From a virus: a stretch of DNA of 38,417 nucleotides. The notes below the pieces were generated by a model, which was not told the origin of the DNA, did not search any database, and saw only the letters and a list, made by a program, of their open reading frames with translations. Of the stretch, positions 57-37,733 are shown in pieces. The translations under genes were made by a program, and so were the position numbers. Each line of letters begins with the position of its first letter. Within the stretch, counting starts at the first letter, position 1. The stretch is taken from positions 1 through 38,417 of the IMG/VR virus record IMGVR_UViG_3300025840_003904. One strand, written 5' to 3'.

Positions 57-2453
57 TTAGTAAGTTCCGCCGTCTAAATCGCCGTACGTAATATTACTAC
101 CGTCTGATTGTAAAATTTTACCACTTGCACCAAGTGTTAACTTATCAAGTGTGTTTGAACCACTAGCGTATAAAATATCACCAGTAGTGTATGTGCTTTG
201 TCCTGTACCACCATATACTTCACCAATAACATCACCATTCCAAGTACCTTGACTAATAGTTCCTAATGTTGTGATTGATGTTTGACCAGCATAAGTTGAT
301 TTAATTTGTAATGCGTCAGATGATATTTCAATCGTACTGTCGTCAACAGCAACATCTATTTGATTACCAGTTTTTGTTAAACCATCACCAGCACTAATTT
401 GACCAGCACCAGAGAATTGAGAAAATGTAATACTTGTACTACCAAATGTTGGTGTGCCGTTATGTGTAGCAACATAGCCGTTATCAGCATTTGTAGAACC
501 TTGTTCAGCAAAGAAGAAAGTACCACCAGTTAATTCTGAAGCTGTGTCGGCATCAGGTGCTCTTGTTAATACGTATGCAGTTGAACCATCACCAACAGTT
601 GTTACAGTATAGATACCGTTTTGAGTATCTGTTGATTGGTCTTTAACTAAAACTCTATCACCTTGACTTAAAGTAACACCGTCAATTGAAATAGCACCAT
701 TTGAACCAGCTGTTAATGTTCCTGCGCCATTATCATATGTAGCAGATAAATTGGCAGTTGTAGCAACTCTAACACTTTCTTTTACATCTAATCCATTTGC
801 AACACTATCAACGTATGCTTTTGTAGCAGCGTCTTGTGCTGAAGTTGGATCAGTAACGTTTGTAATTCTACTTGAATTAACATCAACTGAACCAGAACCT
901 TTTGGATTTAATACTAGGTCAATGTTAGTATCACTACCTGTTGTAGCAATCTCTACACCATCACCAGTAGCTGCGTTACTAACTTGTAATTCATTAACAG
1001 CACTTGCAGTTGTTCTTAATAGAATTAACTCATTACCATTTGCGTCAGCAAGATATCCAGCGTCAGCAAATTTAGGTGCTGTAAGTGTTTTATTTGATAG
1101 TGTTTCTGTTCCTGCTAATGTAGCAAAAGAACCATCAGACAATGCACTATTAAATTCAGCAGTTGTACCAGTTAAAGTACCTTCAGATAAATCTAATGTT
1201 AAAGTGTTATTTGCACTATCAATTACTTTGTTTTGTAAAGTTTGATTTCCTGTTAACGTAGCAACAGTACTGTCTATAGCTATTGTTAATTGTTTAGTTA
1301 AGTTATCAACTGTTGTGTCAATACCAGTACTGCCAGTAACTTGTAATGACTCACTATCTAAATCAATAGAAGCTGAACCTGTATCAGCTGTTAAGTCAAA
1401 ATCTTGTGCTGTGACTTTGTCATCTACATATGTTTTAATCGCTTTCGCAGAAGCAAGAGTACTATCATCTGAAGTTATAGATACAGATAAATCAGTTTCA
1501 ACAACACTAGAAGCAAAATCAGCAACTTCTATATTAGATATAGAGTTTCCTGTTCCATTTGCGTCAAATGTTTTATTTGTTAAAGTATGTGTTGATGAAG
1601 CTGTTAGTACGTCAGCGTGTGTGCTGATTGTAATTGTATCACCTGAAACTGAAGTATCAATGTTTGTACCACCAGTAAATGTTAATGTGTCTGAACCTAA
1701 TGCAACACCATCGTCTGTACCACTATCAGCAGCAATATCTAATGTTGTTGATATTGTAGCCGTACCAGCCGCTGTTAAACGACCTTGTTGATCAACAGTA
1801 AATGTTGGAATTGCAGTTGAAGAACCATATGCACCTGGAGTTACAGCAGTGTCATCTAAATCTATTGTAATTTCGTTATCTGTAATAGATGTAGTAATTC
1901 CTGTATCACCAGTAAACGTTAAAGTTTGACCAGTAGTAAATGTGTCAGTACCACTATCACCAGTAATTGTAAATGAACCTGATGGAATAGCAGCAAAACT
2001 TAAATTACCAGAACCGTCAACTGTTAAGAATTGACCATTTGAGTAAGTACCTGGAAGAGTATAAGTAACGTCTGAAGCTAATGAGTTGGGAGATTTAAGA
2101 GCTACAAAATGTGCACCGTTATTAGTACCTTCGTTTAATTTTATTGTACCACCTGTGGTAGCATTATTACCAATAAGCAATTCATCAATTGCTTTATTAG
2201 AATCTACTATTAAACCAGAAGACGCAGTTAACGTTCCTGGTGTGTGGTCTAAAAGTTGTGTGTAATATCTTCCACCAATTTCAATTGCTGAATTTGATGT
2301 TGATGTTGGATCACCAATGAATAACCTATAACCATTACCACCAGCACCATTATCGGTTGCTGAAGTATCATAGACATAAGCTAGTTCCCCTTGGTTAAGG
2401 CCGCTGGGTGCATTAGCACCAGTGGTTCGTTTAATTTTGATTATTGTTGCCAT
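57..2453 (-). CDS. Tail fibre-like virion protein, 798 aa, modular
   Basis: Low-complexity, Thr/Ser/Gly/Asp-rich protein with the short-beta-repeat character of marine phage fibres. The N-terminus (KIKRTTGANAPSGLNQGELA) resembles the opening of many cyanophage and pelagiphage fibre proteins. Around residues 293-310 it carries FDANGTGNSISNIEVADF, and at about 551-690 a globular module (NGIYTVTTVGDGSTAYVLTR and flanks). Both recur in the 384-aa protein at 31635-32789. The C-terminus ends in GDLDGGTY. A GGGAGA ribosome site precedes the ATG. It lies last before another fibre gene in a tail-gene run. A structural role is well supported; fibre versus another appendage is inferred, and no receptor-binding tip can be identified by eye. 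Confidence 0.8.
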   Translation of the reverse strand: MATIIKIKRTTGANAPSGLNQGELAYVYDTSATDNGAGGNGYRLFIGDPTSTSNSAIEIGGRYYTQLLDHTPGTLTASSGLIVDSNKAIDELLIGNNATTGGTIKLNEGTNNGAHFVALKSPNSLASDVTYTLPGTYSNGQFLTVDGSGNLSFAAIPSGSFTITGDSGTDTFTTGQTLTFTGDTGITTSITDNEITIDLDDTAVTPGAYGSSTAIPTFTVDQQGRLTAAGTATISTTLDIAADSGTDDGVALGSDTLTFTGGTNIDTSVSGDTITISTHADVLTASSTHTLTNKTFDANGTGNSISNIEVADFASSVVETDLSVSITSDDSTLASAKAIKTYVDDKVTAQDFDLTADTGSASIDLDSESLQVTGSTGIDTTVDNLTKQLTIAIDSTVATLTGNQTLQNKVIDSANNTLTLDLSEGTLTGTTAEFNSALSDGSFATLAGTETLSNKTLTAPKFADAGYLADANGNELILLRTTASAVNELQVSNAATGDGVEIATTGSDTNIDLVLNPKGSGSVDVNSSRITNVTDPTSAQDAATKAYVDSVANGLDVKESVRVATTANLSATYDNGAGTLTAGSNGAISIDGVTLSQGDRVLVKDQSTDTQNGIYTVTTVGDGSTAYVLTRAPDADTASELTGGTFFFAEQGSTNADNGYVATHNGTPTFGSTSITFSQFSGAGQISAGDGLTKTGNQIDVAVDDSTIEISSDALQIKSTYAGQTSITTLGTISQGTWNGDVIGEVYGGTGQSTYTTGDILYASGSNTLDKLTLGASGKILQSDGSNITYGDLDGGTY

Positions 2454-2473: not shown

Positions 2474-2704
2474 TTAAAATGTGCCACCGTTTAATATTAA
2501 ATTTCCACTTTCAGTTTTTATATCATTTCGACTTGTCCATTTTTTAGAAGTATTATCATATTGAAGCATTGCACCATCATTTAATGTTGATACATTAACA
2601 TCACCTAGAGCATTAAGTCTAGTTGAAGCTGCTGGAACAGTAACGGAAACGTTTCTCGGTCCCGAAGTATTATTATTAACTGTAGCTATTATTCTGTCTG
2701 ACAT
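2474..2704 (-). CDS. Small fibre-associated protein, 76 aa
   Basis: Short protein with a central D-V-N-V-S-T-L-N-D-G-A-M-L-Q-Y-D segment, a motif common in the N-terminal parts of marine phage fibre proteins, and an ending ILNGGTF that echoes the GGTY end of the 798-aa neighbour. It looks like a short fibre or fibre-base subunit. Its start codon directly abuts the 3' arm of a perfect 12-bp inverted repeat that contains its AAGG ribosome site, with a late promoter in the loop, so its translation is probably tied to late transcription. The exact role is unknown. Confidence 0.65.
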   Translation of the reverse strand: MSDRIIATVNNNTSGPRNVSVTVPAASTRLNALGDVNVSTLNDGAMLQYDNTSKKWTSRNDIKTESGNLILNGGTF

Positions 2705-2752
2705 ATTACCTTATTACTAGTAAGTTTATAATATTTATAATAATAAGGTAAT
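2705..2752 (-). promoter_or_regulatory. Inverted repeat covering the ribosome site of the 76-aa gene
   Basis: Perfect 12-bp arms at 2705-2716 (ATTACCTTATTA) and 2741-2752 (TAATAAGGTAAT) flank a 24-nt loop. Read on the minus strand, the 3' arm contains the AAGG ribosome site and ends at the ATG. A transcript from upstream would pair both arms and hide the site. A transcript started at the late box in the loop (predicted start near 2726) lacks the 5' arm and would leave the site open. The same layout is known for T4 genes such as e and soc. Confidence 0.75.
2732..2739 (-). promoter_or_regulatory. T4-type late promoter box
   Basis: Exact TATAAATA on the minus strand, the sequence recognised by the T4 gp55 late sigma. 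It lies in the loop of the 2705-2752 inverted repeat. The predicted start near 2726 would give a leader of about 22 nt before the 76-aa gene. Confidence 0.75.
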
Positions 2753-2759
2753 GTAAAAC

Positions 2760-2772
2760 TAGTTAATAACTA
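2760..2772. repeat. Short palindrome at the end of the 83-aa gene
   Basis: TAGTTAATAACTA forms a 13-nt dyad that includes the stop codon of the 83-aa gene and is followed on the minus strand by GTTTT. It might weakly attenuate transcription, but the stem is entirely AT-rich apart from one G-C pair per arm, so terminator activity is doubtful. Confidence 0.25.
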
Positions 2773-3021
2773 CTTTTTTTCAACTTCTTTTGATGTATCA
2801 ATGCCTAATTCAGCGGCAATAATATCATCATAGTGTTTTTGTAAAATAGCAACTTTTTCTAACTCTAAAGACAACTTAACTCTAGTTGCTTGTAGGTCTT
2901 GTCTAATGATAATACTATTTAAAGTTTTTGTATTTAACTCACTTCTTTTATAGTCTTTACCATCAATTGTAAAAGTTTGCTCTTTAGCTACATCTGTTTG
3001 TGTATTCAATTCACTACTCAT
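2770..3021 (-). CDS. Small conserved phage protein, 83 aa, IDGKxY type
   Basis: Acidic/basic helical protein with FTIDGKDYKRSELN near residues 17-30, followed by a long helix (about 35-70) with coiled-coil-like spacing. Proteins beginning with an F-x-I-D-G-K-x-Y motif and a helical tail are common in marine T4-like phages (DUF6447-like, from memory). A strong AGGAG site precedes the ATG. It sits between two small structural genes and may be a minor virion component or chaperone. Function is unknown. Confidence 0.65.
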   Translation of the reverse strand: MSSELNTQTDVAKEQTFTIDGKDYKRSELNTKTLNSIIIRQDLQATRVKLSLELEKVAILQKHYDDIIAAELGIDTSKEVEKK

Positions 3022-3036
3022 TTTATTCTCCTATTA

Positions 3037-3372
3037 TTAAACGTTTGGTTTAACGGTGATTAAACCTTCAATTATTTTTGTTACAGTACTGTCACTTGCC
3101 GTTATATCTAAATCATAAACATAACGTGCTGGTGCGTCTAAAGCTGCAGTTTGAGCTGCAGTTAAAGAAAGTGTTATAACACCTGTTGTTCTATCGGCAT
3201 CAAAAGTTGTTGTAATAGTGGTTCTTGTTCTTGTTGAAGCATAACCTAAAGCCATCTTTGCACTTGCTGTATAATCAGTCAAGTCTAAAGGATTTCCATC
3301 ATTACCTCTAACGGTAACTGCTGATGAAAACGTTGTTCCTTGATGTATTACATAATTTGCTATTGCTGCCAT
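3037..3372 (-). CDS. Small beta-rich virion protein, 111 aa (BppU-like fold suspected)
   Basis: The pattern VIHQGTTFSSAVTVRGNDG then LDLTDYTASAKM, with later GVITLSLTAAQTAAL and VYDLDITASD, resembles small phage beta-sandwich proteins related to the N-domain of upper baseplate protein BppU. This usually supports a baseplate or fibre-attachment role. It is the first gene of the left tail block. An exact late box ends only 5 nt before the ATG, so the mRNA may start at the start codon; no ribosome site fits between. The family assignment is from pattern only. Confidence 0.65.
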   Translation of the reverse strand: MAAIANYVIHQGTTFSSAVTVRGNDGNPLDLTDYTASAKMALGYASTRTRTTITTTFDADRTTGVITLSLTAAQTAALDAPARYVYDLDITASDSTVTKIIEGLITVKPNV

Positions 3373-3377
3373 AGTAC

Positions 3378-3385
3378 TATTTATA
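3378..3385 (-). promoter_or_regulatory. T4-type late promoter box, leaderless geometry
   Basis: Exact TATAAATA on the minus strand, then GTACT, then the ATG of the 111-aa gene. By T4 spacing the transcript starts at about 3372, the first base of the start codon. It shares a 41-nt intergenic region with the divergent receptor promoter. ATAGTA (3371-3376) and TACTAT (3390-3395) form an inverted repeat around the box. Confidence 0.65.
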
Positions 3386-3394
3386 CATATACTA

Positions 3395-3422
3395 TTGACT
3401 TTTTTTTAAAAAGTGATATTAT
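3395..3422 (+). promoter_or_regulatory. Sigma70-type promoter of the TonB-dependent receptor
   Basis: TTGACT at 3395-3400, 16-bp spacer, TATTAT at 3417-3422. Six bases further on is the A of ATG 3428, so the transcript is predicted to be leaderless. A perfect dyad, ACTTTTT-TTT-AAAAAGT (3398-3414), fills the spacer and could be an operator. The stretch through AGTATG closely resembles the promoter at 7705-7733. Confidence 0.6.
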
Positions 3423-3427
3423 ATAGT

Positions 3428-5038
3428 ATGCATAAAATTTTAGTAATTTTAACATTTTTATTTAGTAATATATTATTTGCAGCCGAAAACGACTGTCAAT
3501 GGGAAAATGAAACTCCTTGTATTATTATATCTAAATCAAACATAACAAACTCTAACAAAATTGGTGATAAAATTACACCAAGTATTTCTATAACAAAAAA
3601 ACAAATAGAAAAATACAATCTTATAGATTTAGCAAAAACTTTAAATTTTGTTCAAAGCTTAGAAGTATCTCAATCAGGTCCTAGAGGTCAACAAGGATCA
3701 GTTTTTTTCAGAGGCACTAATTCAAATCACGTTTTAGTTTTGTTAAATGGTATACCAATAAATGATTATTCTACACCAACAGGTGCGTTTGATATTGGCC
3801 AAGATTTTATGTTTAATGTTCAACAGATAGATGTTTATAAAGGTTCATCTGGTGCTCATTGGGGCGCTGACGCTGTGGGAGGTGCAATTAATTTTAGAAC
3901 AACTATTGATTACGATAAAAAATTAAACATTTCAGGAAATCACAACGATAAAACAATTAGTGGAAACTACTATACTAATATAAATGACTTTGATATATCC
4001 TTGTCTGCAGGACAACATCAATCAAAAAATATATCAGCACTTTCTGGTGCTAGTGAAAAAGATGGAACAGAAAATAAATCACTTTCACTAAACGTAAGTA
4101 AATGGTATGATCTTATTCACTGGAGAACAAACTTCTTTACACGAAACACATTTACCGATTTAGATGGACATAATGTACTTGTGCAAAATGATAAATGGTC
4201 CGATAATACATTTTATGCTTTTCAAACAGGACTAGATTACAAAAACAGTAGTTTAACTTTACATACACACCAATATGATAGAAACTATGATGATGATTAT
4301 TATAAAAGTCAAAACTATACACTAAAGGCTACACAACAATATGAAAACTATGGTTTTGGATTTGATTATAAACACAATGAATCATTAAACAATCAACATC
4401 ATAACTTAGGATATTTTTTTAATTTATCATATGATATATTTTCTTATCATCACAGATTTGATGAAGAACACGAAACGTATAAGTTAGGATTTTTTAAAGA
4501 AATACAAGATGGATTAAGTATAAGTGGAAGTACATCTACAAGTTATAAAGACAAAACTACCTGGACAGCTATCGAGTATGGTGAAACACAGGAATTAACG
4601 TTAACTAAAAATAATTTTTCAACAACAGTTTTTAAAAACGATATAGGTAATTTAAATACGGATGGTATTGAATTTGCTTATAATCTAAATGATATTAAAT
4701 TTTTTGCAAGTCATCTTAACAGCAAAACAAACGATACGGTAACACTAAGACGTCCTAATTGGTCACTAGGATTTATTCACAATTATGATTTTAAAAATAA
4801 CTTTTCACTAACCACAAATTACAAATATAAAGGCGAACATTTAGATGTACATAACTCTAATTGGTCAACAATCTCAATGCCTGAAACACATTTATTAGAT
4901 TTAAATATTGGTTATGATTATTATGGAATAAAATTTGGTGTAAGTGTGACAAACCTTTTAAATGAAAATTATGATTCACCACACGGATTTAACCAAGAAG
5001 GCAGAAAACTAACTTTAGGATTTAACAAATCTTTTTAA
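3428..5038 (+). CDS. TonB-dependent outer-membrane receptor, BtuB-like, 536 aa
   Basis: Outer-membrane transporter with a signal peptide (MHKILVILTFLFSNILFAA), a plug domain and a beta-barrel. The plug (residues about 50-160) carries FFRGTNSNHVLVLLNGIPIN, very close to the E. coli BtuB segment [20 protein letters not shown], and later YKGSSGAHWGADAVGGAINF. The rest alternates aromatic strands and ends in Phe, as expected for a barrel. BtuB imports cobalamin; the substrate here is inferred. At 536 aa it is shorter than BtuB. The frame also opens at GTG 3413, but ATG 3428 starts the signal peptide directly and is preferred. No clear ribosome site is present. Its stop overlaps the convergent radical SAM stop by 3 nt. 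A host-type gene in a phage tail module suggests capture from a bacterium. Confidence 0.9.
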   Translation: MHKILVILTFLFSNILFAAENDCQWENETPCIIISKSNITNSNKIGDKITPSISITKKQIEKYNLIDLAKTLNFVQSLEVSQSGPRGQQGSVFFRGTNSNHVLVLLNGIPINDYSTPTGAFDIGQDFMFNVQQIDVYKGSSGAHWGADAVGGAINFRTTIDYDKKLNISGNHNDKTISGNYYTNINDFDISLSAGQHQSKNISALSGASEKDGTENKSLSLNVSKWYDLIHWRTNFFTRNTFTDLDGHNVLVQNDKWSDNTFYAFQTGLDYKNSSLTLHTHQYDRNYDDDYYKSQNYTLKATQQYENYGFGFDYKHNESLNNQHHNLGYFFNLSYDIFSYHHRFDEEHETYKLGFFKEIQDGLSISGSTSTSYKDKTTWTAIEYGETQELTLTKNNFSTTVFKNDIGNLNTDGIEFAYNLNDIKFFASHLNSKTNDTVTLRRPNWSLGFIHNYDFKNNFSLTTNYKYKGEHLDVHNSNWSTISMPETHLLDLNIGYDYYGIKFGVSVTNLLNENYDSPHGFNQEGRKLTLGFNKSF

Positions 5039-6288
5039 CTTTGAACAGCTATATTATTATGTTTGTTTAGTTTATCTAAATCTTGTTGATATTGTTTTAC
5101 TTTGTCTAAGGCGTGATGTTGAAACTGATATCCTAATTCTTGTCCCAGCTTCAATACTTTCATAAATCTATTAAATCTTATTTTAAAATCAGAATTTTCA
5201 TTTTTCCAATGATAGCCAAATTCAGAATTAAATAAATCTCTATGCTCAAAATCTAAAGGTGTGTTTTGAAATGTTATCATTATGTGATGTGATACAAATA
5301 TATTATGAGCATATTTTTTATATTTTCTTAATAGGTTTAATGTTTCTTCAAAGTCTTCTTCAGTTTCAGTAGGATAACCACAAATAAGTAAAAATTTCAT
5401 TCTAATGTTTCTTTCACCTATATTTGTTATAAAGTATTCAATATCATCATTACTAAATTTCTTTTTCATATGATCTCGTACTCGCTCACTTCCAGATTCA
5501 ATACCCATATCTAATCCTACACAACCAGAGTTTGCTAAATTATCAAAATCTTGCTGAGTAAATGTTTTTTTATCTCTTACAATAAACTGTGCATCCCAAT
5601 TTATTTTCTTAGGTCTTTTTGCTAACTCGTGGCATAAATCTCTAAAATGTTTCATTGATCCATTAATTAATGAATCAGAAAAATTAATCTTTTTTAAACC
5701 TGTTTGTTCAGAAACGTGATGTAAATCGTCAGCTATTTTTTTACCAGTCTTCCATCTATACTTAGGCCATATACTCATTACATCACAAAAAGTACATTTA
5801 CGAACACAACCTCTACTACCTGATATTACAGCTCTAGTATAATTATGTTTATGAACAACATCTGAATAATCAGGAGGAGGTAGATGTTCTATATCTTCCA
5901 TTTGTGTGGGTTCTTTACCATTAATTCCTGGAAAATCTAAATTTCCTTCCATAAATGCTTTAAGAGCGTGTTCTTCACCTCTTATAAAATGTTTTCTTGG
6001 CCAATTTTTATCAACACCAGAACCACCAAAAACAACATTGTCATAAGGCTCTGCAAGTTTAAGAGCGTCATCTTTTTGTAAAAAAGAAAATACAGATATA
6101 CCTAACCATTTAAATTGATATTTGGCAATTTCTTTGTGTATGTTTTCTAAAGTATCTAATTGATTTCCATCTATAACTTTAACTTTATATCCTAAAGGTT
6201 CTAAATACCCTTTTATAAAAGCAGGACCTGGGACAGGTTTAGCCTTATCTAATCCTGGTAATGATGTAATCACTAAATCATAAATCAT
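5035..6288 (-). CDS. Radical SAM enzyme with B12-binding-like N-domain, 417 aa
   Basis: Class-B-type architecture. The N-terminal Rossmann-like region (1-130; GYLEPLGYKVKVIDG, WLGISVFSF, NVVFGGSG) resembles the cobalamin-binding domains of B12 radical SAM proteins. The radical SAM core carries C161-x3-C165-x2-C168 (GCVRKCTFCDV), which binds the 4Fe-4S cluster and SAM. Later GLDMGIESGSERV and KFLLICGYPTETEEDF are typical of the core barrel. The substrate is unknown; relatives methylate or rearrange unreactive carbons. Its start overlaps the stop of the hydroxylase-like gene as ATGA, so the two are translationally coupled. It ends tail-to-tail on the BtuB-like receptor gene. Confidence 0.85.
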   Translation of the reverse strand: MIYDLVITSLPGLDKAKPVPGPAFIKGYLEPLGYKVKVIDGNQLDTLENIHKEIAKYQFKWLGISVFSFLQKDDALKLAEPYDNVVFGGSGVDKNWPRKHFIRGEEHALKAFMEGNLDFPGINGKEPTQMEDIEHLPPPDYSDVVHKHNYTRAVISGSRGCVRKCTFCDVMSIWPKYRWKTGKKIADDLHHVSEQTGLKKINFSDSLINGSMKHFRDLCHELAKRPKKINWDAQFIVRDKKTFTQQDFDNLANSGCVGLDMGIESGSERVRDHMKKKFSNDDIEYFITNIGERNIRMKFLLICGYPTETEEDFEETLNLLRKYKKYAHNIFVSHHIMITFQNTPLDFEHRDLFNSEFGYHWKNENSDFKIRFNRFMKVLKLGQELGYQFQHHALDKVKQYQQDLDKLNKHNNIAVQS

Positions 6289-7704: not shown

Positions 7705-7733
7705 TTGACATTTTAGGTGAAAAATGATATAAT
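7705..7733 (+). promoter_or_regulatory. Consensus sigma70 promoter of the long cargo operon
   Basis: TTGACA at 7705-7710, exactly 17 bp, then TATAAT at 7728-7733: a perfect housekeeping-sigma match, unlike the late boxes elsewhere. CATTTT-AGGTGA-AAAATG (7709-7726) is a 6-bp dyad within the spacer and a possible operator. Predicted start about 7739. It should drive the genes from 7769 onward. Confidence 0.85.
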
Positions 7734-22904: not shown

Positions 22905-22918
22905 TATTTATATTTATA
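22905..22918 (-). promoter_or_regulatory. Two overlapping T4-type late promoter boxes
   Basis: TATAAATA occurs twice on the minus strand, at 22911-22918 and 22905-22912, sharing two bases. Predicted starts are 6 nt apart, near 22905 and 22899, with a leader of about 53-59 nt before the 313-aa gene. Confidence 0.7.
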
Positions 22919-37725: not shown

Positions 37726-37733
37726 TATTTATA
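37726..37733 (-). promoter_or_regulatory. T4-type late promoter box, leaderless geometry
   Basis: Exact TATAAATA on the minus strand, then TTGAT, then the gp25 ATG at 37720. Same 5-nt spacing as at 3378-3385 and 6734-6741. Confidence 0.7.

Follow-up and report, generated by a model that had tools for sequence, protein, structure and literature searches.

A small fibre-type gene of a marine T4 relative is preceded by a predicted hairpin that hides its ribosome site and encloses a late promoter

The lysozyme hairpin of phage T4 is a classic example of timing by RNA shape and is known for T4 and its relatives, according to the passages of a review that deal with it (PMC3014915). The DNA analyzed here comes from a marine relative of T4 in which a hairpin precedes a small fibre-linked gene, and the locus raises the question of whether this hairpin follows the T4 design and what it would do for the gene behind it. 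The whole stretch of DNA analyzed, 38,417 nucleotides in length, is referred to as the window. We consider it probable, at about 0.8, that the structure is a hairpin that hides a ribosome-binding site and holds a late promoter in its loop, as in T4 e and I-TevI.

The hairpin and the genes around it

An initial annotation had described a perfect 12-bp inverted repeat at positions 2705-2752, covering the AAGG site and touching the ATG of a 76-aa gene, with an exact late box in the loop and the predicted start between the arms. Each of these elements is present, and the strand, which had not been given, is minus; the 3' arm abuts the ATG (2704-2702), and TATAAATA lies in the loop (Table 1). Late boxes in T4 occupy -13 to -6 as described in PMC1524935, and +1 is therefore predicted at 2726, between the arms, which would give a late leader of 22 nt from there to the ATG. 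The repeat is listed first among the inverted repeats of the window with arms within 80 nt, and is the sole perfect 12-bp inverted repeat with a 3-60 nt loop in its 38 kb.

Table 1. Position of the hairpin elements, neighbouring genes and other features in the window.
Feature	Position	Strand	Remarks
798-aa tail-fibre-type gene	57..2453	minus	begins 20 nt past the 76-aa stop; own ribosome site AGGGAGAG
76-aa gene, small fibre-type domain protein	2474..2704	minus	PHROG, homology
3' arm TAATAAGGTAAT	2716-2705	minus	holds the AAGG ribosome site; sequence, folding
Predicted late +1	2726	minus	13 nt past the first T of the box, from the T4 rule
T4-type late promoter box TATAAATA, in the loop	2739-2732	minus	exact box
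5' arm ATTACCTTATTA	2752-2741	minus	only on RNA begun upstream; covaries with the 3' arm in relatives
83-aa gene	2770..3021	minus	stop 17 nt ahead of the 5' arm
111-aa gene	3037..3372	minus	PHROG 1084; PHROG 3304, L-shaped tail fibre assembly
Late box TATAAATA of the 111-aa gene	3378..3385	minus	13 nt ahead of the ATG; predicted leaderless late mRNA
TonB-dependent-receptor-like protein gene	3413-5038	plus	Plug domain, E 8e-19; 536-aa frame at the same place and strand in L014
TTGACA-16-AATAAT match	3499-3472	minus	upstream of the hairpin
Late box	6741	minus	13 nt ahead of an ATG
Perfect sigma-70 match, TTGACA-17-TATAAT	7705-7733	plus	TG ahead of the second hexamer; may drive early transcription of plus-strand island genes
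Two overlapping late boxes (TATAAATATAAATA)	22905-22918	minus	upstream of a 313-aa gene
Late box	37726-37733	minus	13 nt ahead of an ATG

The 76-aa protein matched PHROG 13853 (1.4e-10) and, weakly, the tail-fibre PHROG 9729 (0.0042), and had no Pfam match. It is homologous to the N-terminal part of HTVC008M gp062 (match 46697-46861), a large fibre-region protein that the HTVC008M record names 'baseplate wedge initiator'; its place and its PHROG matches suggest that gp062 is a fibre. The earlier description of the gene as fibre-associated is thus supported, with the domain forming part of the fibre N-terminus in HTVC008M. Since the 798-aa fibre gene possesses a separate ribosome site, with an opening cost of 5.2, hairpin control may reach only the 76-aa protein, and the larger gene may escape it. 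In the hairpin clade, the place of the 83-aa gene is occupied by a gene of 77-116 aa.

In the proposed mechanism, RNA entering from upstream would carry both arms, the stem would shut over the AAGG up to the AUG, and the 76-aa cistron would be silent. A gp55-type late polymerase would start RNA at 2726, which would lack the 5' arm and leave the ribosome site free. A gp55-like late sigma was found in six of six related genomes (E 5e-22 to 3e-17), and none was seen in the window, itself a 38-kb fragment.

The layout closely resembles that of T4 gene e, whose long RNA, as described in the review cited above, places the ribosome site and start in a stem, with late promoters between the arms and, as that review states, a 100-fold decrease in translation (PMC3014915). 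At both loci the late RNA would lack the 5' arm. The differences are that gene e encodes a lysozyme and the gene studied here a small fibre-type protein, that the long RNA of T4 is early whereas the conserved upstream promoter here is late, and that the translational effect was measured in T4 whereas here it is predicted. Such hairpins are also reviewed for T4 I-TevI, I-TevII, gene 49, soc and segB and for Aeh1 mobE (in sections of PMC3014915 and PMC2988022). These share the layout, whereas several of them sit on homing endonucleases in early or middle units, as part of PMC2988022 describes, and not, as here, on a virion-type gene in a late unit.

Folding energies and pairing in relatives

The 12-bp inverted repeat by itself is unremarkable: 65 of 200 dinucleotide-shuffled windows, about a third, hold at least one perfect 12-bp repeat with a 3-60 nt loop. 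The 81-nt fold reached a z of only -1.9 (plus strand folded), exact TATAAATA occurs 9 times in the window against 9.5 expected, which is the chance number, and Rfam 15 gave 0 matches at the gathering score across the whole window. What exceeds chance is that box, arms and start codon coincide and that relatives maintain this arrangement.

Folding of both transcript forms, a check proposed with the initial annotation, gave a closed start region on four longer RNAs (opening cost 14.4-18.6 kcal/mol) and an open one on the late RNA (3.0 kcal/mol). When the 5' arm was scrambled in silico 50 times, the opening cost of the long RNA had a mean of 7.2 and a maximum of 11.5. The mean unpaired probability of the ribosome site was 0.57 on the late RNA versus 0.18 on an RNA from 2900. 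Shuffling of the upstream 50 nt never reached the native value (0 of 60) for the window type, L012, L014, L021, L022 or L038.

We scanned genomes for [TA]ATAAATA boxes ahead of an open frame, counting a site as strong when the energy difference reached 7 or more and z 3 or more. The window had 13 such box sites, G001 30 and G002 37, the latter two being long relatives, and in each of the three this hairpin was the only strong one. Elsewhere, the strong sites numbered 0 of 27 in Mosig, 0 of 18 in HTVC008M, 1 of 24 in Melnitz-1 and 1 of 14 in S-CAM9; scanning six genomes for CATAAATA or GATAAATA boxes added 34 sites, none of them strong. Gene e ranked first by energy difference among the 34 T4 sites of the same scan, followed by I-TevI, I-TevII and 49 at ranks 2-4; soc was absent among the T4 sites listed. 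Under the strict rule e, I-TevII and a gene-26 site qualified in T4, and the rule misses real cases because I-TevI and 49 fall short of its z threshold.

Relatives were collected by protein searches of viral contigs, which returned overlapping sets of 32, 80 (the best 80 of 98), 34, 9 and 39 loci; a further relative search likewise rests on the best 80 matches listed. Some loci are one contig fetched twice (e.g. L021 and L132), and copy numbers are not independent. The named phages among these relatives were Mosig, HTVC008M, Melnitz and S-CAM9, and cellular genomes yielded no relatives by the search used. A search for the arm sequence of the window elsewhere gave 22 stretches; 21 fall on contigs from which the site was already known, and the last on another contig (3300007345_004370). 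One examination dealt with 72 loci and left out L003-L011 and L018-L020, which are near-identical, and L066, which has no upstream DNA. The exact late box was present upstream in 97 of 102 rows (51 distinct), and the five rows without it (L106, L107, L108, L168 and L169) were dropped; from another set, 9 of 38 rows were dropped, two with GTG starts and seven without the exact box.

A tree of 52 proteins, in which few other forks are firm, split a 25-row clade with Mosig and Melnitz (support 100/99) from the side of the window. On the latter side no fewer than five kinds of arm occur, and each fits the ribosome site of its own locus: ATTACCTTATTA/TAATAAGGTAAT in the window type, TTACTCTATTAT/ATAATAGGGTAA in L012 (a U-A to C-G change, with a U.G intermediate in L014), ATATATCCTCTT/AAGAGGGTATAT in L133, TCCCTTATTATAA/TTATAATAAGGGA in L156 and TATTGCCT/AGGCAATA in L163. 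The MAFFT alignments A2 and A3 misregister the arms of different families, and for this reason we used, instead of per-column pair counts, an alignment-free partner-swap test, in which upstream segments are permuted among start regions. For 65 distinct sites, the permutations as good as the native partners were 0, 0, 8 and 163 of 20,000 at 36, 30, 19 and 10 clusters, respectively, and an earlier smaller set gave 1 of 20,000 at 24 clusters. The clade split was made after looking; with it, the side of the window gave 9 of 20,000 (9 clusters), and the pairing of the sister clade was no better than that of swapped partners (3,469 of 20,000; 15 clusters). The compensating changes that had been proposed as a check are therefore present: in relatives both arms change and the pairing is upheld. 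Within the clade, the subclade L036-L055 pairs weakly, L040 opening at 5.2 versus 3.4 with 5 of 60 shuffles as good. A promoter kept while the pairing is lost, which the initial annotation had named as refuting the device, was thus found outside the clade and, in weak form, in this subclade, and not among near relatives. The same annotation had spoken of a device retained from T4, a view that the data do not support: in T4 the sites belong to different genes, and in the sister clade, which includes the cultured phage Mosig, the box is kept without reliable pairing.

Timing, insulation and other explanations

Leaving aside early RNA crossing the gene, every sequence-level feature of a T4-type hairpin over the ribosome site that we tested was found at this putative one. 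The initial annotation held that the gene is silent early and on late; the hairpin over the ribosome site and a late RNA predicted to lack the 5' arm agree with this, but the conserved upstream promoter is itself late. Judged from its sequence, the sole conserved upstream promoter found on the minus strand would be the late box of the 111-aa gene, which automatic detection placed in 18 of 27 hairpin-clade rows; it is also present in G002, whose row (L022) was missed in that count by the choice of a longer frame. As the predicted conserved source of RNA running through the hairpin, this box would in many cases make the longer RNA late as well. No sigma-70-like or early promoter common to the relatives was found upstream of the hairpin.

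The purpose we favour is translation from the gene's own promoter only, that is, insulation from read-through. It would suit the device better than 'early off, late on', and strict early/late timing would be secondary to it. The insulation would act above all against late read-through from the promoter of the 111-aa gene and, in some relatives, also against co-directional genes of the hypervariable host-recognition island. Pelagimyophages carry such an island between VrlC and gp14, as described in part of a survey (PMC7029224). The setting of the hairpin resembles this island, as far as that part describes it; upstream genes change often there, and insulation is therefore plausible. If the upstream RNA is also late, the device would be an insulator and not only a clock.

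True timing as in T4 e, in which early or middle RNA from upstream would cross the gene and leave it silent until late transcription, is possible but in our judgement doubtful. The anatomy is shared with T4 e, I-TevI and 49 (in the relevant part of PMC3014915), a TTGACA-16-AATAAT match lies upstream on the same strand, and in 9 of 27 hairpin-clade rows the next gene upstream of the 111-aa gene is co-directional. However, this match is not common to the relatives, promoter-like sites in 8 kb are as frequent as expected (47 versus 46), the conserved upstream start is a late box, and in the window, as in 14 of the 27 rows (in 4 it is not visible), this next gene is divergent.

The hairpin begins just past the stop of the 83-aa gene and might serve the upstream 111-aa/83-aa message as a stabilizing or processing 3' end or as a terminator, which we regard as improbable: the sequence after the stem is ATGTCAGACAG, without a U-run, the terminator scan lists nothing there, and in five different sequences the 3' arm lies on the ribosome site, which such a role would not need. 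An intrinsic terminator was rejected on the lack of the U-run. Still less probable is that the palindrome acts as double-stranded DNA, as a protein operator over the late promoter; the arms do flank the box, and I-TevI binds over its own late promoter in autorepression, as a section of PMC2988022 describes, but the arms are wholly different between relatives, and in 19 of 23 rows G.U pairs make the sense RNA duplex stabler than the antisense duplex, with three exceptions and one tie. In folds of the whole segment the sense strand wins in 15 of 23 rows only, and not in the window itself. The different arms and the sense-strand bias together disfavour an operator. Pairing by chance in AT-rich DNA around a real late promoter would agree with the frequency of such repeats in shuffled windows, but we find it the hardest to credit in view of the partner-swap test across relatives, the upstream shuffles that fall short of the native value and the singularity of the site among the late sites of three genomes. 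The hairpin hiding the ribosome site thus remains the preferred reading.

Hairpins and late boxes at other genes

The same design was found in Melnitz-1 (MZ577095; locus L227), a cultured OM43 phage, before a gp5-type OB-domain gene, just past a tRNA-Leu gene (box 75082, plus strand). It shares with the window a late box in the loop of a stem that would hide a ribosome site, and differs in its gene, its host (OM43), the tRNA-Leu gene upstream and a predicted late start that coincides with the first base of the 3' arm. In the relatives of this site (L243-L291) the late box lies within the loop each time and the arms change in step (AATCCCTTG/CAAGGGATT; CCCCTTTGC/GCAAAGGGG; AATAATCCTCTT/AAGAGGATTATT), with weaker pairing in the distant types L263, L276 and L279. 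A first swap test, limited to [TA]ATAAATA boxes, set aside the 16 of 50 loci without such a box and was not significant (2,849 of 20,000; 6 clusters), with two of its 16 distinct rows mis-called at an ATG 9 nt past the box. A second form, devised after seeing the first, admitted all ATAAATA boxes and gave 15 of 20,000 (7 clusters, 18 chosen loci); it readmitted L257, L258, L285, L287 and L288 and left out 11 loci (L269-L275, L280 and L282-L284). At these 11 of the 50 gp5-type loci the only box is of the CCTAAATA type, ATAAATA is lacking and a 5' arm is not evident, an argument against universal use of the device at this gene.

Other sites with similar features were also observed. In L156 (1077-1142), L170 and L171 there are two late boxes per hairpin, the first overlapping the 5' arm, and both predicted starts still lie past this arm, an arrangement that can be likened to gene e with its two late promoters. 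In T4 (NC_000866), divergent overlapping late boxes at 116454 (plus) and 116457 (minus), between genes 26 and 51, both show large hairpin effects. The one strong site of S-CAM9 (NC_031922, 144369, minus) is a AATAAATA box ahead of a 66-aa frame, a putative gene.

The hairpin over the ribosome site is known from T4, and the sites described here would represent a further instance, in marine relatives and on virion-type genes, where two-sided stem changes uphold the T4 design. In the open-licence literature searched, we found no report of the device in pelagiphages, OM43 phages or cyanophages. Middle and late promoter prediction was attempted without success in the pelagimyophage survey, as one part of it states (PMC7029224), and the late-box sites found here provide a testable late-gene map.

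We propose only tentatively that in SAR11 and OM43 phages the point at which a message begins might decide whether certain late genes are translated, through hairpins escaped only by a local late start and through leaderless late mRNAs. The two would stand side by side in the window, with the 111-aa gene leaderless and the 76-aa gene behind its hairpin, at the edge of the hypervariable island, where they would insulate the fibre cassette from upstream insertions. A box 13 nt ahead of an ATG places the predicted +1 on the A of the start codon, that is, on a leaderless late mRNA. In six SAR11/OM43-type phage sequences, 23 of the 149 sites had a late box at exactly this distance, versus 0 of 48 in T4 and S-CAM9 together, and the peak is sharp, since distances of 11, 12, 14, 15 and 16 total 6 sites. 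Besides those of the window (Table 1), such boxes are located in G001 at 48795 and 90928 and in HTVC008M at 6267, 7549 and 31119, among others.
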